Source: Chamaesiphon sp. 336R_metabinner_41 | GTDB taxonomy: Bacteria; Cyanobacteriota; Cyanobacteriia; Cyanobacteriales; Chamaesiphonaceae | NCBI GenBank assembly: GCA_025359915.1 | Contig: JANYDE010000112.1 | Span: forward strand, 1 to 38,168 | Direction of reading: 5' to 3' | DNA length: 38,168 nucleotides | In this document: positions 1 to 38,168 of the stretch, piece by piece | Numbering within the stretch: the first letter of the stretch is position 1 | Layout of the letters: each line of letters begins with the position of its first letter | The notes under the pieces: generated by a model | Told to the model about the DNA's origin: nothing | Database searches by the model: none | Seen by the model: the letters and a program-made list of their open reading frames with translations, nothing else | Program-made: the position numbers and the translations under genes

Positions 1-135
1 AGTAATAAGTAATAAGTAATAAGTAATAAGTAATAAGTAATAAGTAATAAGTAATAAGTAATAAGTAATAAGTAATAAGTAATAAGTAATAAGTAATAAG
101 TAATAAGTAATAAGTAATAAGTAATAAGTAATAAG
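1..135. repeat. Heptanucleotide tandem repeat (TAAGTAA), about 19 copies
   Basis: The first 135 bases are an almost perfect 7-bp tandem repeat with unit AGTAATA/TAAGTAA, about 19 copies, probably continuing left of the window. Heptanucleotide tandem repeats (STRR sequences) are known from filamentous cyanobacteria. A two-copy relic of the same word lies near 29247. Positions 136-378 after the array hold no convincing gene; they include a C/T-rich stretch near 155-175 and must contain the promoter of the next gene. Confidence 0.95.
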
Positions 136-378
136 TTAGACTACCATCAGCTCTGCCCAACTCCCATCTCCCAGGTATTTTCTCACTGTTTACCGCTCTG
201 CGTAACAAATATTAATGGCTGAAAGAGTTGCTTCTCATAATTGGGACTGAGAGATTACCGACCAATTTAGCTGCCAGAATCCCTACGCTACAAGGTTTAC
301 TGCCTTGCGTCGCAACCAACTACCCCATATAATGGCTTTATATAAATAAACATTAAGTCAACAATATCAATAATTATT

Positions 379-5471: not shown

Positions 5472-6365
5472 ATGAGCGGCACTATCAACACATCTAACTC
5501 TGTAAATGTTCGATCGAGCGATATCTATAGATCTCGCGAACCATTGGAATCGAATCAGCTTGCAGATTTTATCCAGGAAACATTAGCCCTAACGAAACGG
5601 CTATTTATCCAACTCCAGCGTCGCCCTTCGACACTAATTGCAGGCATCGTACAACCGTTGATGTGGTTGGTATTATTCGGCGCATTATTTCAAAATGCAC
5701 CCCAGGGGATGATGGGAAATGACTTGAGTTATGGACAATTTTTAGGTGCGGGAGTCATTGTGTTTACCGCCTTTGCGGGAGCATTAAATGCTGGATTACC
5801 TGTAATGTTCGATCGAGAGTTTGGCTTTCTGAATCGGTTACTAGTCGCACCTTTAGCATCACGTTACTCGATCGTCGCCGCTTCCGCAATTTATATCGTA
5901 GCATTGAGTCTGATTCAGACCGCTGCAATTATTGGCGTAAGTGCGATCATGGGTGCTGGTTTACCGAGTCTTACCGGATTAGCAGCGATTACGTTGATTA
6001 TTCTGCTGCTCGTCTTGGGCGTAACAGCGATGAGTCTAGGATTTACATTCGCCCTACCTGGACACATCGAACTAATTGCGGTAATTTTCGTAATTAACCT
6101 CCCCCTATTATTTGCCAGCACTGCCTTAGCACCACTAACATTTATGCCCCAATGGTTGCAGATTGTCGCCTGTCTCAATCCGCTCACATATGCGATCGAG
6201 CCAATTAGATACTTGTATACTCATCCACAATGGAATCTAACTAGTGTCGTCCTTCAGGCTCCCTGGGGATCCATCTCCTTTGGCTCCTCACTGCTGATTC
6301 TAGTTAGTTTTATGCTACTTACCCTAACCGCAATTCAACCCCTATTAAAACGCCGTTTAGCTTAA
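5472..6365 (+). CDS. ABC-2 type transporter permease
   Basis: This is a 297-residue ABC-2 family permease with a cytoplasmic N-terminus of about 45 residues and about six membrane segments. The conserved central block (NAGLPVMFDREFGFLNRLL) and the C-terminal part (ACLNPLTYAIEPIRYL) are typical. It pairs with the DrrA-type ATPase at 4060. The start codon at 5472 is preceded by a pyrimidine-rich repeat of CTCCCAGT words (5430-5460) with no Shine-Dalgarno, so translation may be coupled to the upstream genes. Confidence 0.9.
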   Translation: MSGTINTSNSVNVRSSDIYRSREPLESNQLADFIQETLALTKRLFIQLQRRPSTLIAGIVQPLMWLVLFGALFQNAPQGMMGNDLSYGQFLGAGVIVFTAFAGALNAGLPVMFDREFGFLNRLLVAPLASRYSIVAASAIYIVALSLIQTAAIIGVSAIMGAGLPSLTGLAAITLIILLLVLGVTAMSLGFTFALPGHIELIAVIFVINLPLLFASTALAPLTFMPQWLQIVACLNPLTYAIEPIRYLYTHPQWNLTSVVLQAPWGSISFGSSLLILVSFMLLTLTAIQPLLKRRLA

Positions 6366-29325: not shown

Positions 29326-29616
29326 ATGACTCAACTCACACCACCTCAAAAGCCTTTACCCAGTCCATTAAGTTGTTTAACTGGTTCATTGATTGCTGGT
29401 ACAATGTCGCTCGGAATGTATACGATCACCAGCAATATTGCCACCACATTTGCAACTAGACCGATGGTTCAAAAAACCACGATGGCGGTTAATATTGCTA
29501 CAGCAGTGAGAACGTTAGTGTTAGGTTCGACAGCATTAGGCATGACTGTATTTGGGATTATCTCAGTCGGATTAGTCGGGCTGGCTATTCAAGTTGCATT
29601 TAGCAAAAAGCAATAG
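29326..29616 (+). CDS. DUF3082 domain protein
   Basis: This is 96 residues from the ATG at 29326, with two hydrophobic segments (about residues 17-38 and 62-90). It resembles the cyanobacterial DUF3082 family from memory; the function is unknown. The frame is open upstream to 29272, but that part translates the CCCATCT heptamer array and is unlikely to be native. No Shine-Dalgarno is seen, so initiation may depend on readthrough from ispE or on an unusual leader. Confidence 0.75.
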   Translation: MTQLTPPQKPLPSPLSCLTGSLIAGTMSLGMYTITSNIATTFATRPMVQKTTMAVNIATAVRTLVLGSTALGMTVFGIISVGLVGLAIQVAFSKKQ

Positions 29617-29667
29617 TATTTAATAGTTGAAAAATTGCTGTTCTCAAATTACCTTAAGCCTAAATTA

Positions 29668-29988
29668 ATGGATAAGAAGTCTAAAAATAAAGAATCTAGC
29701 TTATTATATCAACGATTAAAGACTGCATTGCATGATGGGATTAAGGTCTGGTTTGAAACCCGCGACAAAAGTTATTTTGGCATTCCAATTGGTCTCGATC
29801 AATCCTTCGTAGAAGTATTGATTTTAGTCCCAGGTAGTGAAGAAGAATCAGCAGAATATAGTTTTCAACGGGTGACTTGGGTAGTCCGATTATCTTCGAT
29901 TTCAGCGATTGCTTATCCTTCAGAATACTGGTCTACTGATAGATTGGATAGTCTGCTCAATAAATCTGCACTTAATACAGATGTTTAA
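29668..29988 (+). CDS. Conserved hypothetical protein
   Basis: This is 106 residues from the ATG at 29668; a TTG at 29635 would add 11. It is soluble and mixed alpha/beta with no cysteines or catalytic motif. It contains WFETRDKSYFGIPIGLDQ and FQRVTWVVRLSSISAIAYP. It resembles unannotated cyanobacterial proteins. It is the last gene before the repeat-rich toxin-antitoxin island. Confidence 0.6.
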   Translation: MDKKSKNKESSLLYQRLKTALHDGIKVWFETRDKSYFGIPIGLDQSFVEVLILVPGSEEESAEYSFQRVTWVVRLSSISAIAYPSEYWSTDRLDSLLNKSALNTDV

Positions 29989-30372
29989 TTATTAATCAGA
30001 TTGCTCGATCAGGAATTTTATTTTTTTAGCCTGTTTGACCATAAACATTACCGGAAGATCGATTCTCTTATCAGAGAGGCTTTACTAACAGATCGAGAAC
30101 AGATAGATAAAACTCAATGGCTCAATATAAACGCGACAGATTTTTCAAGTTCTACATCCAATCATTGTATAAAACTAAGGGTGATACCCAGCAAAATATT
30201 CAAGTTCGTAATGATGAGGATTTAGAAATCGATTTGATGTTCATTGGTGAGCCAGGAAAGGAAGGATGGCAGCAGGAAGATTTGGGTTTATTCGTTGGCG
30301 GTAGCCTCGATTGTTGTAACGATTGGGCAAAGCCCACGCTGTGCTTAAGAGGCAGGCTAACGCCAACGCGAA

Positions 30373-30531
30373 CGAATTAACGACAATCGACCAAACCCAA
30401 AAGAATCGATCGATAATCTCGACAGGGTATAAAGATGCTCCTCAATAGCGATTACCTCCGATAGGCTGCGCCAACGATTACCTCCGGTACGCTACGCGAA
30501 CGAGCCTCAAACACTAAGATTGTTGGGTTTC
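30373..30531 (+). repeat. R repeat, copy 1
   Basis: Landmarks in order are CGAATTAACGAC, GACCAAACCCA, ATCGATCGATAAT, CAGGGTATAAAGATGCTCCT, CCTCAAACACT and TGTTGGGTTTC. Two 22-nt small elements (30453-30474 and 30479-30500) sit back to back inside it at CGAT. It forms the left boundary of the BrnT-BrnA module. Confidence 0.8.
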
Positions 30532-30549
30532 TGATGAAATGTGATTTAT

Positions 30550-30570
30550 ATGTACAATTGTGCATATAAT
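30550..30570 (+). promoter_or_regulatory. brnT promoter with overlapping near-palindrome
   Basis: A consensus TATAAT at 30565-30570 lies 6 bases before the ATG at 30577, so the transcript would start at or next to the start codon (leaderless or nearly so). The near-palindrome ATGTACAATTGTGCAT (30550-30565) abuts the -10 box in the spacer, a good place for BrnA autorepression. Confidence 0.5.
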
Positions 30571-30576
30571 AGATAA

Positions 30577-30843
30577 ATGGCTTATCAATGGGACAAAAAC
30601 AAAGCAGCAACGAACCTCGGTAAGCACGGGATTGATTTTGCTGATGCAGTTTCTGTGTTCTCAGACGATCTCGCCATCACAACACCAGATCAACGATTTG
30701 ATGAAGAGCGATTTATTACCATCGGGATAGATGCTTTGGGTCGATTGCTGGTAGTGGTGTATACCTGGCGCGATCGAGAAATTAGGTTGATTTCAGCTAG
30801 ATTGGCGGCCCGTCAAGAACGAAGACAGTACGAAGAGGACTAA
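30577..30843 (+). CDS. brnT: BrnT family toxin
   Basis: This 88-residue protein matches the BrnT type II toxins (ribonucleases with a RelE-like fold). It begins with the family pattern W-KNKAATNLGKHGIDFADAV, then DQRFDEERFITIGIDALGRLLVVVYTWRDREIRLISARLA, including the conserved ISAR end. Toxin precedes antitoxin, the usual order for brnTA. It is separated from BrnA by 3 bases and is probably repressed by the complex. Confidence 0.88.
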   Translation: MAYQWDKNKAATNLGKHGIDFADAVSVFSDDLAITTPDQRFDEERFITIGIDALGRLLVVVYTWRDREIRLISARLAARQERRQYEED

Positions 30844-30846
30844 GTT

Positions 30847-31134
30847 ATGGAAGTGGAACACGATTCTGTCGAAGTAGAATATGATTTCAGCAAAGGAAAG
30901 CGAGGTGCGATCGATCCTATCGGTACGGGAAAAACGCGGATTACGATTCGGATTGATGATGATGTTTTAGACTGGTTTCGGGAGCAAGTTCATCAAGCAG
31001 GAGGGGGCAACTATCAAACCTTGCTGAATGAAGCATTGCGAACCCATATTCACAATCAGCATGAGCCGCTAGAATCAACCTTGAGACGAGTGTTACGCGA
31101 AGAATTGGGACGAACTCCTATGGCTTCAAATTAA
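30847..31134 (+). CDS. brnA: BrnA family antitoxin
   Basis: This 95-residue antitoxin has an acidic N-terminus and a ribbon-helix-helix-like DNA-binding region (TRITIRIDDDVLDWFREQVHQAGG-NYQTLLNEALRTHI), the standard BrnA C-terminal pattern. It neutralises BrnT and should bind the promoter palindrome at 30550. The module lies between two direct R repeats. Confidence 0.88.
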   Translation: MEVEHDSVEVEYDFSKGKRGAIDPIGTGKTRITIRIDDDVLDWFREQVHQAGGGNYQTLLNEALRTHIHNQHEPLESTLRRVLREELGRTPMASN

Positions 31135-31162
31135 CAGTTGTAGAGTGATATAAGCAAAATCG

Positions 31163-31338
31163 TTCGCGAAGCGTGCCGTAGGCAATCGATCCCAAAACCA
31201 TCGCACCAAAGATCGAATTAACGACGATCGACCAAACCCACGAGAATCGATCGATAATTTCAACAGGGTACAAAAATACTCCTCAATAGCGATTACCTCC
31301 GGTAGGCTATTGCAGGGCAAACGCTCCGCTACCGCCAA
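31163..31338 (+). repeat. R repeat, copy 2, with two small inserts
   Basis: The same landmarks as copy 1 run from CCATCGCACCAAAGATCGAA to ACTCCTCAATAGCGAT. A 22-nt element beginning TTCGCGAAGCGTGCC (31163-31184) sits at its left. A 45-nt element (31294-31338) sits at its right, after which the Rpn middle fragment starts immediately. Confidence 0.8.
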
Positions 31339-31418
31339 CGATTGCCAGATAGTCCTGAAACAATGTGGCTGAAGATGCTTGGGAACAGAGAGTCAGCACA
31401 GAGTGCATTTCAATCGAT

Positions 31419-31440
31419 TACCTACGGTAGGCTACGCCAA
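31419..31440 (+). mobile_element. 22-nt small dispersed repeat inside the Rpn gene
   Basis: This begins TACCTACGGTAGG and ends CGCCAA, inserted between CGAT and CGAG. It causes a +1 frame change; deletion of exactly these bases joins FQS-I to EQLSPDRR in frame. Confidence 0.8.
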
Positions 31441-31838
31441 CGAGCAGTTGTCCCCCGACCGCCGAGAGAAAAATGATATAATGAGAGCCTGCATCAAATA
31501 TTGTGTTTATCTCAAAGATATACCTACTGACAGTTTAACTCCAGAGGAGCAAAATTTTATGAAAACGATGGCACAAGTCGATGCTTGGTATGAGACTGAG
31601 ATGAACAAGGCTCAGTTAGAAGGTGAGCTTAGAGGGAAGCTCGAAGGTAAGCTCGAAGGTAAGAAGGAAATCGCGATTAATTTACTCCGTAAGAACATAG
31701 CTTTGGATGTGGTTGCTGAGGTAACTGGATTTACGATTTCCGAATTGGAAGGCTTCGCCAACGAACAACTTCAACAACTGCAATTATCAGAATGAGCGGC
31801 TTTACCAACGAATCTCTAACACGATCGATCTTTAAATT

Positions 31839-31995
31839 CGATCGATAACCATCAACATCGATCGATAACCATCACACCAAAGATCGATCGAATCAACCAC
31901 GGTCGATCCCAAGCTAATCGATCGATCATTCCAACAAGATATAAAGATACTCCTCAACAGAGATTTATCGAACCTCAAACACTGGAATTGTTGGG
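31839..31995 (+). repeat. R repeat, copy 3 (uninterrupted)
   Basis: This runs without inserts from CGATCGATAACCATC through CACCAAAGATCGATCGAATC, GATATAAAGATACTCCTCAA, CTCAAACACTGGAATTGTTG. It serves as an empty-site reference for copies 2 and 5. Confidence 0.8.
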
Positions 31996-32089
31996 GTGAA
32001 TGTTGAAACCCAACCGACAGAGCTACTAGGTCGAACTATTCACAAGATGAGTATGCAATAATAGTAGCAACTGAGGCTGAGGTTAAAAA

Positions 32090-32389
32090 ATGCAGTATCA
32101 AGTTTTTGTCAAAAGTCGTTCGGATCGAGGTTTTACTGCTTCCGTACTTGAAATACCGTCTATCGCTGTTAATGGGAATACAGAAGGTGAAGCGATCGCC
32201 AATGCCAAAACCGAATTAGAGTCGCAATTGTCAACAGGTAAGATCGTGACAATTTCGATCGAACCCAAGACTAATTCTACGTCCATGCAATATGCAGGTA
32301 TTTTAGAGAACGATCCAACCTTCGACGATCTGATGGAAAAACTTGTTAATATTCGTCAAGTCGCCAATGAGTGCGAAGATGAAAAATGA
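32090..32389 (+). CDS. HicB-like antitoxin-type small protein
   Basis: This 99-residue protein begins MQYQVFVKSRSDRGFTASV, resembling the short HicB-type fold, with a C-terminal acidic tail (ENDPTFDDLMEKL). A paralog at 33797 precedes a PIN toxin with the same 4-base overlap, which supports an antitoxin role. Here the overlapping partner is a HigA-like protein instead. A GAGG-type ribosome-binding site lies upstream near 32076. Confidence 0.7.
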   Translation: MQYQVFVKSRSDRGFTASVLEIPSIAVNGNTEGEAIANAKTELESQLSTGKIVTISIEPKTNSTSMQYAGILENDPTFDDLMEKLVNIRQVANECEDEK

Positions 32390-32784
32390 TACTTACTTTT
32401 AATTCCGAAAAATATAAAGAGGTTCTGTCTGAGTATCAGCCAAAGCTAATTAAGACAGAAGCAGAAAACGAACGCGCTTTAGCGATCGTAGAGCAATTAA
32501 TGAATTCTCCCGATCTCAGTCCCGAACAAGAGGAAATTTACGAGTTATTAGTTATTTTAATCGAGAGATTCGAGCAAGAATTTTACAAGCCAGATCGATC
32601 TAAAAATTCTGGATCGATGTTATCATTTTTGATGGATCAGCGCGATTTCAATCCGATCGATCTAGTGCCAATATTTGCTTCTGAAGCCGCTGTAGAAGAG
32701 GCAATCTCTGGGCGTACTAATATAGATAGTTATACTGCCGATCGACTGGCTGAATTATTTCATGTAGATGCCAGTTTATTTTAA
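32386..32784 (+). CDS. HigA-like protein (COG5499-type)
   Basis: This 132-residue protein has the N-terminal half of HigA-like antitoxins (YQPKLIKTEAENERALAIVEQLM, EIYELLVILIERFEQEFY) and a C-terminal helix-turn-helix-like part (DLVPIFASEAAVEEAISGRTNI ... LAELFHVDASLF). Its start overlaps the preceding gene by ATGA. No HigB toxin is adjacent, in contrast to the complete HigB-HigA at 36142-36800, so this is either a solitary antitoxin or a hybrid with the HicB-like gene. Confidence 0.75.
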   Translation: MILTFNSEKYKEVLSEYQPKLIKTEAENERALAIVEQLMNSPDLSPEQEEIYELLVILIERFEQEFYKPDRSKNSGSMLSFLMDQRDFNPIDLVPIFASEAAVEEAISGRTNIDSYTADRLAELFHVDASLF

Positions 32785-32811
32785 AGCTGTAGCTTTAATT
32801 CATGGTGTCCG

Positions 32812-32972
32812 TTGGCGGTAGCGGAGCGTTTGCCCTGCAATAGCCTGCCGTAGGTAATCGCAAACCGAACCTATTTTTGTAAGTAAAACTTACGGTTTCG
32901 TCGAGCTATACCTAAACAAAGTAATCGTTGGCGGTAGCGGAGCGTTTGCCCTGCAATAGCCTACCGGAGGTA
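32812..32972 (-). mobile_element. Two 45-nt small repeats in reverse orientation
   Basis: Near-identical 45-nt elements at 32812-32856 and 32928-32972 begin TTGGCGGTAGCGGAGCG and end with TAGGTA or GGAGGTA before ATCG. The second splits an R repeat at GTAATCG/ATCATCC. The 71 bases between them contain the near-palindrome GTAAGTAAAACTTAC. Confidence 0.75.
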
Positions 32973-33040
32973 ATCGATCATCCCAACAGAATATAAAGAT
33001 GCTCCTCAATATTAATCGAACCTCAAATACTGGAATTGTC
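32973..33040 (+). repeat. R repeat, copy 4 (short)
   Basis: This contains CATCCCAACAGAATATAAAG, ATGCTCCTCAAT and CTCAAATACTGGAATTGTC. It abuts the 3' end of the minus-strand yoeB gene. Confidence 0.75.
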
Positions 33041-33041
33041 T

Positions 33042-33383
33042 TTAATTTTTATAGTGATAGCGGGCTTGTAAAAATTGAATAGATTCATCTTTAATTCGAT
33101 AAATTAACCGATGCTCTAAATCTATTCTTCGCGACCATGTATCTGCTTCCATGAATTTTAGTGGTTCTGGTTTACCAATTCCTGAAAATGGATCGATGCA
33201 AACAGATTCTATTAAATCGAGAATTTTGTTGGCTTTTTGAACGTCTTGCCGATACCACCATTGCAAATCTTCTCTGAAGTCTTCATCAAAAATAATCTGC
33301 CTTTGAATGATGATTATTTCTGGCTGAGAATTTTCAGAGCGATTTTTATCTTTCTTTTTAGCGGACAATTCCCAACTCCTCAC
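33042..33383 (-). CDS. yoeB: Txe/YoeB family toxin
   Basis: This is up to 113 residues from a GTG at 33383, overlapping the antitoxin gene by 26 bases. The family core runs from IIFDEDFREDLQWWYRQD to the conserved end RIDLEHRLIYRIKDESIQFLQARYHY, with PFSGIGKPEPLKF between, as in YoeB mRNA endonucleases. The first 30 residues are extra and hydrophilic; no ATG is available, and a later TTG (ELSAK) is an alternative start. It is translated after YefM from one transcript. Confidence 0.88.
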   Translation of the reverse strand: MRSWELSAKKKDKNRSENSQPEIIIIQRQIIFDEDFREDLQWWYRQDVQKANKILDLIESVCIDPFSGIGKPEPLKFMEADTWSRRIDLEHRLIYRIKDESIQFLQARYHYKN

Positions 33384-33675
33384 ATAACGCAGCGATCGAT
33401 TGTGATGGGTTCTCTGGCTCTGTATTGCTGTATCCTTGGAGATCTCTTTGTTTGGCTCGATCGATCGCCCGATGCAATCTAGTTGCGTTGGCGGGAGATC
33501 TCAGTAGATAGACCGTTTCTAAGAGGCTGCTGAGGTCTGTTTCGGCGATGAGAGCGACGTTTTTATTGGTGCCGTCTCGTTTGACTATAATAATATCTTT
33601 GCTATCTGCTACACGATCGAGCAGAACGCTTAAATTACTCTGTGCTTCGGTATAGCTAATTTCGCTACTAGTCAT
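33358..33675 (-). CDS. yefM: Phd/YefM family antitoxin
   Basis: This 105-residue antitoxin begins MTSSEISYTEAQSNLSVLLDRVADSKDIIIVKR, the Phd/YefM DNA-binding N-terminal pattern, followed by VALIAETDLSSLLETVYLLRSP. It pairs with the overlapping YoeB-type toxin. It is transcribed divergently from the HicB-like/PIN pair at 33797. Confidence 0.9.
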   Translation of the reverse strand: MTSSEISYTEAQSNLSVLLDRVADSKDIIIVKRDGTNKNVALIAETDLSSLLETVYLLRSPANATRLHRAIDRAKQRDLQGYSNTEPENPSQSIAALCEELGIVR

Positions 33676-33796
33676 ACAGTGGTTTCCGAGTTTAGTATGT
33701 CGATTATAACTTACCGATCGTAGGGGTGCGATGTTCGATCGAGAGTGTTAAAATGGGTTGTGGACGCTTTTCCAATTCTCAAAGTAGGTATTGAAC

Positions 33797-34114
33797 ATGC
33801 AATATCAAGTATTTGTTAAAAATCCAGCCGAGAGCGAGTTTATGGCATCTGTGATTGGATTGCCAAATGTAACCGCTAATGGGATGACGGAAAAAGAGGC
33901 GATCGATAAGCTCAAGGTTATCCTAGATGCTCAATTTAGGAATGGAAAGTTAGTAACGATCGATATAGATATACCTAGCAAAGTAGCTGAAGAAAGAAAC
34001 GATCCTTGGATTAATAATATGGGTATATTTCAGGACGATCCAAATTTTGACGACTTTTTGGCAGAAATGAATAATTATCGTAATGAGGTAGATTCTGTCG
34101 AGGATTATCGATGA
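33797..34114 (+). CDS. HicB-like antitoxin-type protein, partner of PIN toxin
   Basis: This is 105 residues from the ATG at 33797; a TTG six bases earlier is also in frame. It is a paralog of the protein at 32090: MQYQVFVKNPAESEFMASV, then NGMTEKEAIDKLKVILDAQF, and a C-terminal FQDDPNFDDFLAEMNNY that matches the partner-binding acidic tail of the other copy. It overlaps the PIN toxin start by ATGA. Confidence 0.75.
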   Translation: MQYQVFVKNPAESEFMASVIGLPNVTANGMTEKEAIDKLKVILDAQFRNGKLVTIDIDIPSKVAEERNDPWINNMGIFQDDPNFDDFLAEMNNYRNEVDSVEDYR

Positions 34115-34539
34115 TTTTATATGTTGTTGATACTGATATCTTGAGTCTTTATCAACGGAATTATCCACAGGTTTGTACTCGGATTCGGCTTGCTAGACAA
34201 AATAATCTAACCATCAAAACGACGGTGATAACGGTTGAGGAGCAATATGGTGGACGTTTAGCACAGATTCGGAAAGCACAAAATCCCGAAGCTTTGATTT
34301 TAGCCTACGATCAATTGACTGCAACATTTTCTCTATTCTCTCAGTTGGAAATTCTCAAGTACAATCGATTTGCTGATGATTATTTTCGACAATTTCGACA
34401 GCAAGGAATTCGGATTGGAACGCAAGATCTACGAATTGCGTCGATCGTTCTCGCTCATGGTGGTATTATTGTTACTCGCAATCAGAAAGATTTTGGACAA
34501 GTGCCAGGATTAACAATCGAAGATTGGTCTTTGGAGTAA
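34111..34539 (+). CDS. PIN domain toxin, VapC-type
   Basis: This 142-residue PIN-domain nuclease has the first acidic residues in YVVDTDILSLYQ (residues 3-14), a conserved Glu in TVEEQYGGR, and later aspartates in GTQDLRIASIVLAH and NQKDFGQVPGLTIEDW. It is probably an RNase of the VapC group, held in check by the HicB-like neighbour rather than a VapB. A 22-nt small repeat begins 5 bases after its stop. Confidence 0.88.
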   Translation: MILYVVDTDILSLYQRNYPQVCTRIRLARQNNLTIKTTVITVEEQYGGRLAQIRKAQNPEALILAYDQLTATFSLFSQLEILKYNRFADDYFRQFRQQGIRIGTQDLRIASIVLAHGGIIVTRNQKDFGQVPGLTIEDWSLE

Positions 34540-34543
34540 ATCG

Positions 34544-34774
34544 TTCGCGTAGCGTGCCATAGGCAATCGATCCCAAAACCATCGCACCAAAGATCGATTC
34601 CGCAAAGCGGAGGCTACGCCAACGAATTAACGATGATTCCCTCCGGTAGGCTTCGCCAACGACCAAACCCAAGAGAATCGATCGATAATTCCAACAGGAT
34701 ACAAAGATGCTCCTCAATAGCGATTACCTAACGGTAGGCTCCGCCAATGATCGAGCCTCAAATACTGAAATTAT
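34544..34774 (+). repeat. R repeat, copy 5, with four small inserts
   Basis: The R landmarks (CCCAAAACCATCGCACCAAA, GACCAAACCCAAGAG, CAACAGGATACAAAGATGCT, CCTCAAATACTGAAATT) are split by inserts at 34544-34565, 34598-34622, 34637-34659 and 34725-34747. Comparison with uninterrupted copies shows the surrounding R sequence is otherwise continuous. Confidence 0.8.
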
Positions 34775-34817
34775 TAACATCGTTCGCGGAGTATTTTCCC
34801 CAGCAAAAAGGCTATTG

Positions 34818-35222
34818 CTAGGAAAAAATCTCACTATTGATTTGCAGCCAGTTTACCAATTTACTCATTCCTTCTTCCTGACTTTCCTGACTTGCTGCTA
34901 GCTCCAAGAAAAAATTTGCAGCATCAACTTCTGATGCCGTCAGTTCGATTCCATTAATCGATAAAAATGTGTAAACAGCAATCAGCGCAATTCTTTTGTT
35001 ACCATCGATAAAAGAATGATTCTTGACAAGTCCATAGCCATAAGCTGCTGCTAATGAGAATAAGGTTATATCATCACCATAACAATACAGATTTTTGGGT
35101 TTATTTAAGGTTGATTCTAAAGCACCTTCATTGAGGATGCCAGCATCACCACCAGATTGAACGATGATTTCATTGTGAATGGCACACACATCACGAGGAT
35201 CTAGCCAACAAGGTTCGCTCAT
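34818..35222 (-). CDS. doc: Doc family toxin (Fic fold)
   Basis: This is a 134-residue death-on-curing type toxin. The catalytic motif HSFIDGNKRIAL contains the histidine, Asp and GNKR of Doc kinases, which phosphorylate EF-Tu. The N-terminus LDPRDVCAIHNEIIVQSGG is typical. It overlaps the antitoxin gene by 4 bases. Confidence 0.9.
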   Translation of the reverse strand: MSEPCWLDPRDVCAIHNEIIVQSGGDAGILNEGALESTLNKPKNLYCYGDDITLFSLAAAYGYGLVKNHSFIDGNKRIALIAVYTFLSINGIELTASEVDAANFFLELAASQESQEEGMSKLVNWLQINSEIFS

Positions 35223-35440
35223 TTTGCTAACTCGATTAAGGCATTGCGATATTTTTTCATCCCTTCTCTAGCCGCTTCCATTTTAGCTGCGAAACTAGGC
35301 TCGTATGCGGAAATCTCATATCCCGATGGCGTTTTGGTGGCGAAGAGAGTATCGCCATCTTCAACACTCATGCTCGTTGCCATTTCTTTGGGAACAATGA
35401 TACTCAGTGAGTTACCGCGTTTTTTGATATTTAGCAGCAT
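35219..35440 (-). CDS. AbrB/MazE-type antitoxin
   Basis: This 73-residue SpoVT/AbrB swapped-hairpin protein (LNIKKRGNSLSIIVPKEMATSMSVEDGDTL) has a helical C-terminal tail (FAAKMEAAREGMKKYRNALIELAK) that should bind Doc. It precedes Doc on the minus strand with an ATGA overlap. Doc paired with an AbrB-type rather than Phd-type antitoxin is a known variant. Confidence 0.87.
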   Translation of the reverse strand: MLLNIKKRGNSLSIIVPKEMATSMSVEDGDTLFATKTPSGYEISAYEPSFAAKMEAAREGMKKYRNALIELAK

Positions 35441-35504
35441 AAGTACTTTTGGCTAGATAGAGGATCGATCTTTTCTCAATGTTACCACAAATGTTGTAAC
35501 GATC

Positions 35505-35700
35505 AAATTAACGACGATCGATCGAGATCGATCATTCCAACCGGATACAAAGATGCTCCTCAATATCGATCGAACCTCAAACACTGAAATTGTTGGCTTT
35601 CTCGAAGTAAGTAATCGATCGATCATTCCAACAGGATATAAAAATGCTCATCAACAGCGATCGAGTCTCAAACACTGAAATTGTTGGGTTTCGAGGGCTT
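35505..35700 (+). repeat. R repeats, copies 6 and 7 in tandem
   Basis: Two successive units share CGATCGATCATTCCAAC, GATACAAAGATGCTCCTCAA or its variant, and CTCAAACACTGAAATTGTTG, spaced about 91 bp apart. They occupy the 355-base gap between the AbrB antitoxin start and the DUF2281 gene. A TTGGGTTTCGAGGGCTTCAA hairpin with CCCA ends the second unit. Confidence 0.85.
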
Positions 35701-35795
35701 CAACCCAGCCCACAGCGAAAATTCCACTTATGAGTGCGATCCCACAGGTTTGAGCTAAAATAGGAATACATCTTTCAATTGCCCTTGATAATCGT

Positions 35796-36008
35796 ATGGA
35801 GCAAGCACTCCTCGAACAAATTCAGCGACTACCAGAATCGGTGCAGCAGGAAGCCCTGCAATATATTGAGGGTTTGGTTGCAAGGCATAATCAGTCGGTG
35901 CAAACACCCCCACTCAATCGAAAAGATGCTTTCGGCATCTGGAAGGGGGATGTGTGGATTTCTGATGATTTTAATGCGCCTTTAGATGATTTACAGGAAT
36001 ATATGTAA
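35796..36008 (+). CDS. DUF2281 antitoxin (VapB-like), copy 1
   Basis: This 70-residue protein, MEQALLEQIQRLPESVQQEAL, is the typical DUF2281 beginning of antitoxins linked to PIN toxins. The C-terminal DVWISDDFNAPLDDLQEYM is the likely toxin-binding tail. It is about 80% identical, by eye, to the protein at 37185. Its partner toxin is truncated, so it may be an orphan antitoxin. Confidence 0.85.
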   Translation: MEQALLEQIQRLPESVQQEALQYIEGLVARHNQSVQTPPLNRKDAFGIWKGDVWISDDFNAPLDDLQEYM

Positions 36009-36088
36009 TGGGTCGGTTTTTACTGGATACACACGTATTTCTGTGGCTGATTCAAGGCGATCCACAGTTGAGCGATTACTTCCGGTAG
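36008..36088 (+). pseudogene. Truncated PIN toxin (vapC) remnant
   Basis: MGRFLLDTHVFLWLIQGDPQ then LSD matches the start of the intact toxin at 37397, after which the frame enters a 45-nt small repeat (36077-36121) and stops at TAG 36086-36088. The insert lies after GAGCGAT, exactly where the intact gene reads GAGCGATCGAGCG. The remaining 100 or so residues are absent, and higB follows directly. Confidence 0.88.
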
Positions 36089-36141
36089 GCTATTGCAAAG
36101 CAAACGCTCCGCTACCGCCAATGAAATATGATAATTAAAAC

Positions 36142-36444
36142 GTGAGAATTTTATCAAAAAGAACATTACGAGAGTTTTGGGAAAGTTATCCTAAATATGC
36201 TGATGCCGAAGATCCTCTCAAGTCTTGGTATCGAGAGGCTAAACAGGCTAGTTGGCTGACTCCGGCAGATGTTAAAGAACAATATCGAAATGCGAGTATA
36301 CTGAGAAATAATCGAACCGTATTCAATATTGCAGGTAACAAATATCGATTAGTTGTTGAGATTAACTACGCATTGCAGATTATTTTTATCCGATTTGTTG
36401 GGACTCATCAAGATTACGATGCTGTTGATGTGGAGACAATATGA
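36142..36444 (+). CDS. higB: HigB family toxin
   Basis: This 100-residue toxin of the RelE superfamily begins MRILSKRTLREFWESYP from a GTG, followed by LKSWYREAKQASWLTPADVKEQY and NRTVFNIAGNKYRLVVEINYALQIIFIRFVGTH-DYD, the standard HigB pattern with the conserved basic and His residues. It overlaps higA by ATGA. Confidence 0.92.
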   Translation: MRILSKRTLREFWESYPKYADAEDPLKSWYREAKQASWLTPADVKEQYRNASILRNNRTVFNIAGNKYRLVVEINYALQIIFIRFVGTHQDYDAVDVETI

Positions 36445-36800
36445 ATACTGCTTTAATTAGACCGATTAAAACTGAAACTGATTATCGGGATGCATTGGAA
36501 CGAGCGGGAGCTTTGATGTCATCTCAGCCGAATACACCTGAATCTGATGAATTAGAAGTACTGGCAACTCTGATTGAGTTATATGAAGAGAAATATTTTC
36601 CGATCGGCTTACCAGATCCGATCGCCGCAATCGAGTTTCGACTAGAACAGTCAGATCGATCGACAGCCGATCTAATTCCAATTATTGGTAGCGAATATTT
36701 AGTAGCAGAAGTAATGTCTAAACGTCAAACTTTAACGCTAGAAATGATTCGCGCACTTCACCGTCAGTTGGATATTCCGGCAGATATCTTACTTCAATAA
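36441..36800 (+). CDS. higA: HigA antitoxin
   Basis: This 119-residue antitoxin has the N-terminal IRPIKTETDYRDALERAGALM and DELEVLATLIELYEEKYFPI of the COG5499 group, then PIAAIEFRLEQSDRSTADLIPIIGS with a helix-turn-helix. It matches the complete HigB to its left, unlike the HigA-like protein at 32386. Confidence 0.92.
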   Translation: MNTALIRPIKTETDYRDALERAGALMSSQPNTPESDELEVLATLIELYEEKYFPIGLPDPIAAIEFRLEQSDRSTADLIPIIGSEYLVAEVMSKRQTLTLEMIRALHRQLDIPADILLQ

Positions 36801-36804
36801 TCTC

Positions 36805-37135
36805 GTTCGATAATCATCAACATCGATCGATCCTAAAACCATCGCACCAAAGATCGATCGAATTAACGAAAATCGACCAAACCCAAGCTAATCGATCGAT
36901 CATTCCGACAGAATATAAAGATACTCCTCAATAGCGATCGATCGAACCTCAAACATTGAAATTGTCGGGTTTCTCGAACTAGGTAATCGTTGGCGGTAGC
37001 GGAGCGTTTGCTTTGCAATAGCCTACCGGAGGTAATCGATAATTTCAACAGGGTATAAAAATACTCCTCAACACTGATCGATCGAACCTCAAACACTGGA
37101 ATTGTTGGGTTTCGAGGCTCAACCCAATCTACAGA
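36805..37135 (+). repeat. R repeats, copies 8 and 9, with one 45-nt insert
   Basis: A full-length uninterrupted unit (36805-36989) carries all landmarks, from CATCGATCGATCC to TTGTCGGGTTTCTCGAACTA. A reverse-orientation 45-nt small repeat follows (36990-37034, between GGTAATCG and ATCGATAA), then a second unit from 37035. The units are spaced 140 bp, which is the 95-bp period plus the insert and small loss. Confidence 0.85.
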
Positions 37136-37184
37136 CTATTTGAGCTAAAATAAAAATATATCTTTAATTGCCCTTAATAATCGT

Positions 37185-37397
37185 ATGGAGCAAGCACTCC
37201 TCGAACAAATTCAGCGACTACCAGAGTCAGTCCAACAGGAAGCCTTGCATTATATTCAGGGTTTGGTTGCAAAGCATAATCAGTCAGTGCAAACACCCCC
37301 ACTCGATCGAAAGAATGCTTTCGGCATTTGGAAGGGACAGGTATGGATGGCTGATGATTTTAATGCTCCTTTAGATGATTTGCAGGAATATATGTAA
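37185..37397 (+). CDS. DUF2281 antitoxin (VapB-like), copy 2
   Basis: This is the 70-residue paralog of 35796, with the same N-terminal helix region and tail QVWMADDFNAPLDDLQEYM. Identity between the copies extends about 50 bases upstream into the promoter and into the toxin gene, so the pair arose by segmental duplication. The stop overlaps the toxin start (TAATG). Confidence 0.87.
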   Translation: MEQALLEQIQRLPESVQQEALHYIQGLVAKHNQSVQTPPLDRKNAFGIWKGQVWMADDFNAPLDDLQEYM

Positions 37398-37786
37398 TGG
37401 CAGAACGCTACTTGCTAGATACTCATGTATTTCTGTGGTTGATTCAAGACGATCCACAATTGAGCGATCGAGCGAGGGACATCATAGCTGATTATGAAAA
37501 TCAACTCAATTTTAGTGTAGTTAGTATTTGGGAAATTGTAATTAAGTTAAATATTGGCAAGTTAAAGATAGAGCATACGATCGAAGATATTTATACACTT
37601 TTAGCTCAACTCAATATTTTGATTTTACCGATCGAGCGTTCCGATCTGGATCGATATTTAGCGTTACCATTACATCATCGAGATCCTTTTGACAGGCTAA
37701 TCATCGCTCAAGCAATCGACCGAGAGTTAATACTCATAAGTGTCGATAGTTCTTTCGAGCCTTATTCAGTTCATAAATTATGGTAA
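37397..37786 (+). CDS. vapC: PIN domain toxin, VapC-type (intact copy)
   Basis: This 129-residue PIN nuclease begins RYLLDTHVFLWLIQDDPQLS with the first catalytic Asp8, has Glu in SVVSIWEIVIKLNIGKL, Asp in HHRDPFDRLIIAQA, and the last Asp in LISVDSSFEPY. All four acidic positions are present, so it should be active. It is the intact counterpart of the truncated gene at 36008. Confidence 0.92.
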   Translation: MAERYLLDTHVFLWLIQDDPQLSDRARDIIADYENQLNFSVVSIWEIVIKLNIGKLKIEHTIEDIYTLLAQLNILILPIERSDLDRYLALPLHHRDPFDRLIIAQAIDRELILISVDSSFEPYSVHKLW

Positions 37787-37793
37787 TTTCAGG

Positions 37794-38040
37794 TCGATCG
37801 ATAATTCCAACAGGATATAAAGCTGCTCCTCAACCGCGATCAATCGAACCTCAAACACTGAAATTATTAGGTTTCTCGAAATAGATAATCGATCGATCAT
37901 TCCAACAGGATATAAAGATACTCCTCAATACCGATCGATCGAACCTCAAACACTGAAATTGTTGGGTTTCTCGAATTAGGTAATCGATCGATCATTCCAA
38001 CAGGATATCAAGCTGCTCCTCAATACTGATCGATCGAGTC
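37794..38040 (+). repeat. R repeats, copies 10-12: 95-bp tandem array
   Basis: Three units repeat at exactly 95 bp (the ATTCC landmark falls at 37804, 37899 and 37994). The third is cut short before the relE/parE-like gene. Landmarks are CGATCGATCATTCCAACAGG, ATATAAAGATACTCCTCAA, CTCAAACACTGAAATTGTTG and GGGTTTCTCGAA. Confidence 0.92.
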
Positions 38041-38042
38041 TT

Positions 38043-38168
38043 TTACATCCGATTAAGCAATTCATCATACTCATCATGTGCGCCAATCCAATACCAGTAA
38101 ATATGGTCAGATTCCAATAAGCCGAGAACACGGTAGTTGAGGTTGACACGGGCAGAGTAAATCGGTTG
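38043..38168 (-). CDS. RelE/ParE family toxin, C-terminal part (cut by window end)
   Basis: The last 41 codons of a minus-strand gene read QPIYSARVNLNYRVLGLLES, then DHIYWYWIGAHDEYDELLNR and Met-stop. The YSARVNLNYRVLG strand and WIG-HDEYD end are typical of RelE/ParE toxins such as those near BrnT or HigB clusters. The antitoxin and N-terminus would lie to the right of the window. Confidence 0.8.
   Translation of the reverse strand, partial: QPIYSARVNLNYRVLGLLESDHIYWYWIGAHDEYDELLNRM

Follow-up and report, generated by a model that had tools for sequence, protein, structure and literature searches.

The window analysed here is a stretch of 38,168 nucleotides that forms the whole of contig C43 in the 4.23-Mb, 169-contig genome of Chamaesiphon sp. 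336R_metabinner_41. Between positions 30117 and 31795, it contains two pieces of an Rpn-like gene, a BrnT/BrnA toxin-antitoxin pair, two copies of a repeat named R, which is described by a profile of 95 positions, and copies of a mini-repeat named SDR. The elements follow each other in the order N-terminal piece of the Rpn-like gene (N piece), R1, brnT, brnA, half an R (R2), 45-nt mini-repeat, and C-terminal piece of the Rpn-like gene (C piece). The features of the locus are:

30117..30293, plus strand: Rpn-like N piece, residues 1–59 of the intact homologue, 75% identical in amino acids to the paralogue on contig C31 of the same genome
30295..30306, minus strand: probable inverted SDR remnant at a CGATCGA-like site, rpn codon 60, recognised from the alignment and inverted repeat arms
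30370..30533, plus strand: R1, near-whole R core (profile positions 2–87) with SDR material inside and the 5' extension cut
30577..30843, plus strand: BrnT toxin (PF04365, 101 bits, cut-off 34.5)
30847..31134, plus strand: BrnA antitoxin (PF14384, 44.4 bits, cut-off 26.1)
31157..31294, plus strand: R2, 5' extension and left half of R only; core 31245–31294, profile positions 2–51 of 95
31294..31338, plus strand: long SDR variant of 45 nt at the R2/rpn seam, with the same insertion point as a 22-nt SDR in the rpn of contig C101
31342..31795, plus strand: Rpn-like C piece, from residue 178 to the stop by DNA alignment with C31; sub-threshold match to TIGR01784
31419..31440, plus strand: SDR of 22 nt, inserted at CGAT^CGA in rpn with no target duplication; site exactly empty in the rpn of C31
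31544..31549, plus strand: internal Shine-Dalgarno sequence GAGGAG
31559..31795, plus strand: intact frame of 78 codons, proposed to encode a free-standing antitoxin like RpnS
31838..31997, plus strand: R3, after the rpn stop, with a 3' flank common to two C101 rpn tails

Both Rpn-like pieces lie on one strand, in gene order and without overlap, with the BrnT/BrnA pair between them. Three uninterrupted genes served as yardsticks: the C31 paralogue (318 aa) and genes of two relatives, G003:C127 (328 aa) and G009:C166 (304 aa). Alignment with the DNA of the uninterrupted C31 gene, a comparison of the kind that the original prediction had proposed for a homologue in a close relative, delimits the kept residues, 1–59 and 178 to the end, and the 22-nt insert. 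About 118 residues (60–177, C31 numbering) are gone, in fair agreement with the loss of about 100 that had been predicted. The missing block holds many of the columns that are invariant among four intact homologues, and the N-terminal nuclease region is thereby incomplete. The rpn similarity of the N piece possibly extends to ~30316 in the DNA alignment with C31. The C piece ends close behind an SDR-like stretch of 24 nt (31737–31760), which adds eight residues in frame and is present in C31 and absent from the C101 tail.

The assignment to the Rpn family is weakly supported by curated models. The C piece (31439–31792), the intact C31 gene and the G003:C127 gene reach 34.8, 30.1 and 16.6 bits, respectively, with TIGR01784, all below the cut-off of 52.1. 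The C31 gene has no Pfam family at E ≤ 0.1, and with 7th0_A, a chain of the solved RpnA-S structure, a profile of four whole homologues gives a match at E = 0.1. Comparison with homologues places the pieces near one rpn subfamily. The nearest homologue of the N piece (81% amino acid identity), and of a middle piece on C101, is G009:C166. In the C piece, the opening 26 residues come closest to G007:C392 (77%), the last part is 77% identical to G008:C201 and 64% to G009:C166, and residues 201–315 are 70% identical to the C31 paralogue. An origin of the two pieces from unrelated Rpn genes was rejected on the basis of this common subfamily.

Rpn-like genes are also broken elsewhere. Clean middle deletions, with neither insert nor R nor BrnTA, are present in an rpn on contig C11 of this genome (346 nt lost) and in G008:C14 (517 nt lost), both measured against the G003:C127 gene; the C11 copy, which has the same neighbour close by, seems to be its orthologue. 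The rpn piece on C101 (residues 88–177) carries an SDR at the nucleotide where the window has its seam, with normal rpn sequence upstream and no R there. Its break therefore probably predates the arrival of R2, and rpn was probably interrupted at codon 177 by an SDR first. Decay of the Rpn fragments before any R or BrnTA arrived had been named by the original prediction as evidence against itself, and the codon-177 break comes close to this case. The C101 rpn tail is nearly identical to that of the window, except for a 24-nt in-frame gap. Three separate rpn 3' ends are followed by R in this genome, at 31795 of the window and near 5497 and 1352 of C101, so that neighbouring rpn copies need no special plea. 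The view that a single Rpn gene surrounds the BrnTA pair is supported by the fragments, their order and their common subfamily, but the three R-trailed ends allow for two rpn copies.

BrnTA looks like an ordinary, intact type II pair: both models score above their cut-offs, and the genes are adjacent with the toxin gene first. What is unusual is the setting between R copies. Genes for BrnT are present in ten of eleven genomes of the family, this one included, which has a second brnT on C151 with no R nearby. The two nearest BrnTA loci, G007:C380 (79% DNA identity) and G003:C127 (69%), contain no R within the ≤3 kb checked, and the R core is absent from 29 other BrnT loci of ~3 kb or less each. 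Two of these 29 gave short hits, one to part of an SDR (L129) and one to 33 nt of the R2 flank (L126). Outside this set, a distant BrnT (40%) lies next to an R copy in G003:C88. A BrnTA unit with R ends, for which the original prediction had proposed to look at other loci, was not met in the loci checked. The G007 copy sits between what we take to be an lgt-like gene and another conserved gene, and this place is occupied in our genome, on C22, by two other small genes.

As had been predicted, R1 and R2 are direct repeats; they share 90% identity over 98 nt. R2, however, is incomplete and stops at profile position 51 of 95, and the module is therefore not cleanly bounded by R. A clean R-bounded insertion was rejected, since a complete R is not present at both ends. 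R1 is 74% identical to R3, 90% to R2 and 89–90% to the C101 copies. Its likeness to the rpn-type R3 does not exceed that to the others, and so R1 need not be the R of the rpn module itself.

The R copies have a single orientation within each locus, as determined from 24 stretches searched: 12 copies in the window (30404–38051), 10 on C101, 5 in G001 and 6 in G003:C88, with one further weak match in another G003 contig. They point one way although the modules lie in both directions, and in places they stand in tandem. Most modules have an R behind them, and the set of modules at the gltB locus varies from species to species. Integron cassette arrays likewise have a repeat behind most modules, in one orientation, and carry toxin-antitoxin cargo; the tandem R copies, and the lack of an integrase above the cut-off in this genome, set the present array apart from them. 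R could be conceived as the recombination site of an integron-like system whose recombinase moves the modules as cassettes, and the common orientation and the variable modules would fit. We consider this very unlikely, since R is missing from both of the nearest BrnTA loci, none of the 11 matches to the integron integrase model TIGR02249 in this genome exceeds the cut-off, and Rfam has no match at E ≤ 1 in 29600–38168. An integron proper was rejected on the latter two results. In a folding test, the outer helix of R pairs in 88.3% of cells, compared with an average of 86.8% after shuffling, a level that 35 of 500 shuffles attained; the covariation score was reached by 15 of 500 shuffles, with changes on both sides in only one of six pairs.

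R was found in at least four of the eleven family genomes among the best 40 candidates per genome, G008 counting by one weak match. Among the best 40 of 159 candidates in this genome, R occurs in two places, C101 and the window. The exact 28-nt R pattern was found in one stretch of the genome_contigs collection, a contig of a Chamaesiphon metagenome-assembled genome, and in none of viral_contigs; an R of G001 that fits this pattern was not listed, which makes such an absence weak evidence. Within these limited searches, R was seen in this genus only, and the repeats in their single orientation are the stranger feature of the locus.

In both rpn and R, CGAT^CGA sites are occupied by SDRs of 22–45 nt. 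The 18-base SDR core occurs 14 times in this genome, 12 times in G001 and in nine of the eleven family genomes, with zero hits throughout for the reversed-pattern control, and is absent from two sister-genus genomes. The core of the 45-nt variant occurs four times in this genome, all within the window, and twice in G003. Besides the C31 rpn, an exact empty site without target duplication is present in the gltB of G001, opposite an SDR-bearing gltB piece on C101. Read by eye, the left flank is GAT in 27 of 28 copies, some of which are not independent, such as the gltB insertion common to C101 and G003, and the right flank CGA is part of the search pattern. PMC4390886 describes SDR5, a small cyanobacterial repeat module inserted in HIP1 between nucleotides 3 and 4. 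The SDRs described here resemble it in being short, dispersed in the genus and precisely inserted at the HIP1-type position (on the other strand) without target duplication. They differ in that the site is CGATCGA and not a full HIP1, and the likeness to SDR5 as described there is one of position, size and dispersal.

The right seam fuses R2 to the C piece through the 45-nt SDR variant. The original prediction had R2 joining the Rpn fragment at a small insert; such an insert exists in the 22-nt SDR at 31419–31440, but the seam itself lies in the 45-nt variant. R2 ends at the position where R1 (30404) and the R copy at 34676 carry SDR material. A second seam of like make lies 5 kb further on (~36077–36121, within window positions 36008–36124), where a second vapC gene is cut after ~23 codons by a long SDR and its remnant is joined to the region upstream of higBA. 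The left seam (30294–30369) matches nothing but itself among the loci compared.

Based on these structures, a history of the locus can be proposed. We regard it as somewhat more probable than not that the locus is a decayed toxin-antitoxin array punctuated by R, in which recombination between SDRs caused a deletion, the toxin RpnL is dead and an antitoxin of the RpnS type is possibly kept. Such an array would have consisted of modules mostly followed by R and held several Rpn-like copies. An SDR in the R behind brnTA would have recombined with an SDR in a downstream rpn copy, deleting the right half of R2 together with the 5' half of that rpn. The N piece upstream of R1 would be what is left of a neighbouring rpn copy that lost its 3' part; its origin from the same gene is less likely. 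A single deletion between brnTA-R2 and the downstream rpn copy explains the right seam. In its favour are the SDR at one and the same rpn nucleotide in C101 and in the window, the end of R2 at the SDR position of other R copies, the exact empty sites in the C31 rpn and the G001 gltB, the second SDR seam in vapC, the two clean losses of rpn middles without R or BrnTA, and the three R-trailed rpn 3' ends. Deletion is for these reasons favoured over insertion. Against it, non-overlapping N and C pieces in gene order are a free outcome of one interrupted gene, the left seam is poorly resolved, and R1, to judge by its similarities, need not be the R of an rpn module.

The same non-overlapping order, with the single strand and subfamily, would suit an SDR form of the original idea, in which one SDR-bearing rpn took up a fragment consisting of R1, brnTA, the left part of R2 and an SDR in place of residues 60–177; the probable SDR remnant near the left rpn edge also fits. 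We consider this uptake possible but rather unlikely. If a circle of R and brnTA had entered by a single SDR crossover, only the right half of R would be expected upstream, whereas R1 is near-whole. Furthermore, neither of the two nearest BrnTA loci has an R, rpn middles are lost without any insert, and the codon-177 break is probably older than R2. The idea of an R-bounded module that replaced part of a gene consequently keeps its fragments, their order and the missing block, but R2 is a half copy, the seam is in an SDR, and the nearest BrnTA pairs have no R. The original prediction had thus picked out a real arrangement and told too simple a story of it: the clearest working end is an SDR, breakage of the gene had probably begun before, and no R-ended BrnTA unit turned up at the other loci checked.

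The arrangement could also have arisen in the computer, by wrong joining of different loci at repeats. The genome is in many contigs with 3.42% contamination, and the last 141 bases of the window (38028–38168) are identical to the end of C101, so that the two contigs end in a single collapsed repeat, which G003:C88 suggests to be a gene for a RelE-like toxin. The longest exact repeats at the seams, checked against the window, C101 and C31, are however 54 nt (right) and 15 nt (left), both well below this 141-nt overlap, and we regard an artefact as most improbable.

The 3' piece of rpn may have outlived the toxin. Zhong et al. 2023 (PMC10327210) report that rpn genes function as toxin-antitoxin systems in which a C-terminal protein, RpnS, made from an internal start, blocks the full protein; RpnS also occurs as a separate gene, and the type of four-residue repeat in its region is given. 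The homologues described here resemble the RpnL/RpnS systems of that study in keeping an internal Shine-Dalgarno sequence and ATG ahead of a C-terminal region of charged four-residue repeats. They differ in the match to TIGR01784, which is below the cut-off, and in the window copy, which is without residues 60–177. In the C piece of the window, the sequence GKLEGKLEGK forms four-residue repeats of charged residues and glycine. The motif GAGGAG-N9-ATG is present in 11 of 12 instances, the window included, among 30 loci scanned, and the twelfth has GAGGAA. Its Shine-Dalgarno bases are also the codons of E237 and E238. The codon GAG is used for E237 in 15 of 15 cases and for E238 in 10 of 13, compared with 58 of 157 over 15 other conserved glutamate columns, as counted in 16 homologues that were chosen from the 30 loci and are related to each other. 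Single columns among the other glutamates range from 0/9 to 7/9 (E202); E237 stands out from these, and E238 alone does not. The model of the 78-residue frame is helical (mean pLDDT 82.4, pTM 0.53), with no fold match in the PDB at E ≤ 0.001. Judged from these sequence features, the 3' piece of the window may be a free-standing RpnS antitoxin. After the proposed deletion, the nuclease toxin RpnL would be dead, and the piece with its own conserved Shine-Dalgarno sequence and start would still produce the antitoxin.

Other rpn pieces lean modestly towards kept 3' ends. Among 77 rpn match rows, 13 were classified by eye as C-terminal only (query start ≥190, open frame up to 152 aa), some of which may be chance matches, the C-terminal repeats being of low complexity; two further rows in frames of >300 aa were taken for divergent full genes and not counted. 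Rows with the N-terminal side only comprise three short ones, ending by residue 107, and four longer ones, ending at 192–227 in frames of 210–239 aa. A site resembling a ribosome-binding site is present at the conserved methionine in six of 13 re-read loci, one of the 13 (G006:C212) being an N-side piece. Retention of the antitoxin is not a general rule, since both C101 tails begin downstream of the internal start, the deletion in G008:C14 takes out the internal Shine-Dalgarno sequence, and some pieces, for example that in G006:C212, keep the toxin side and lack the 3' end. It is unlikely, in our estimate, that R is a lineage-specific cassette punctuation, in one orientation behind toxin-antitoxin modules, which brings modules into this genus without an integron integrase, with rpn repeatedly losing its toxin half and keeping the antitoxin gene as a free-standing one; the modest lean towards 3' ends makes this reading less probable.

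For the seams of toxin-antitoxin arrays, these results move attention from the R ends to the small dispersed repeats, where the arrays break and rejoin. For toxin-antitoxin systems encoded as a gene within a gene, they suggest a course of decay in which the antitoxin half can outlive the toxin. The parts worth following are the R array and the antitoxin half that was possibly kept.

The gene at 29662–29985 is present in all eight other genomes of the genus, and synteny stops at ~29991 (the G007 contig ends 300 bases further on); relatives thus carry other genes where the array of the window stands. The genes that follow this point in G003 were not found as one DNA block in our genome among the best 40 of 87 candidates. 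In G001 and G003, the R array lies upstream of gltB, whose orthologue is in pieces here, on C101, C31 and C22. A VapBC stretch of the window (37031–37727) is 92% identical to the copy in the G003 array. No such array was met in the literature on Chamaesiphon, cyanobacterial toxin-antitoxin systems or BrnT, as covered by titles and the beginnings of abstracts. The first 343 codons of gltB run into the rpn middle piece (L045 on C101, 1855–2901; L046 on C31), and an open frame for a distant glutamate synthase (46%) lies on C131. Two HigA-like proteins of the window match the PADLOC model PD-Lambda-2_B (36441–36797, E = 9e-39; 32386–32781, E = 1e-13). The contig starts with a tandem AGTAATA array (window 1–136), and a perfect 26-base inverted repeat without spacer is present at 2243–2294.
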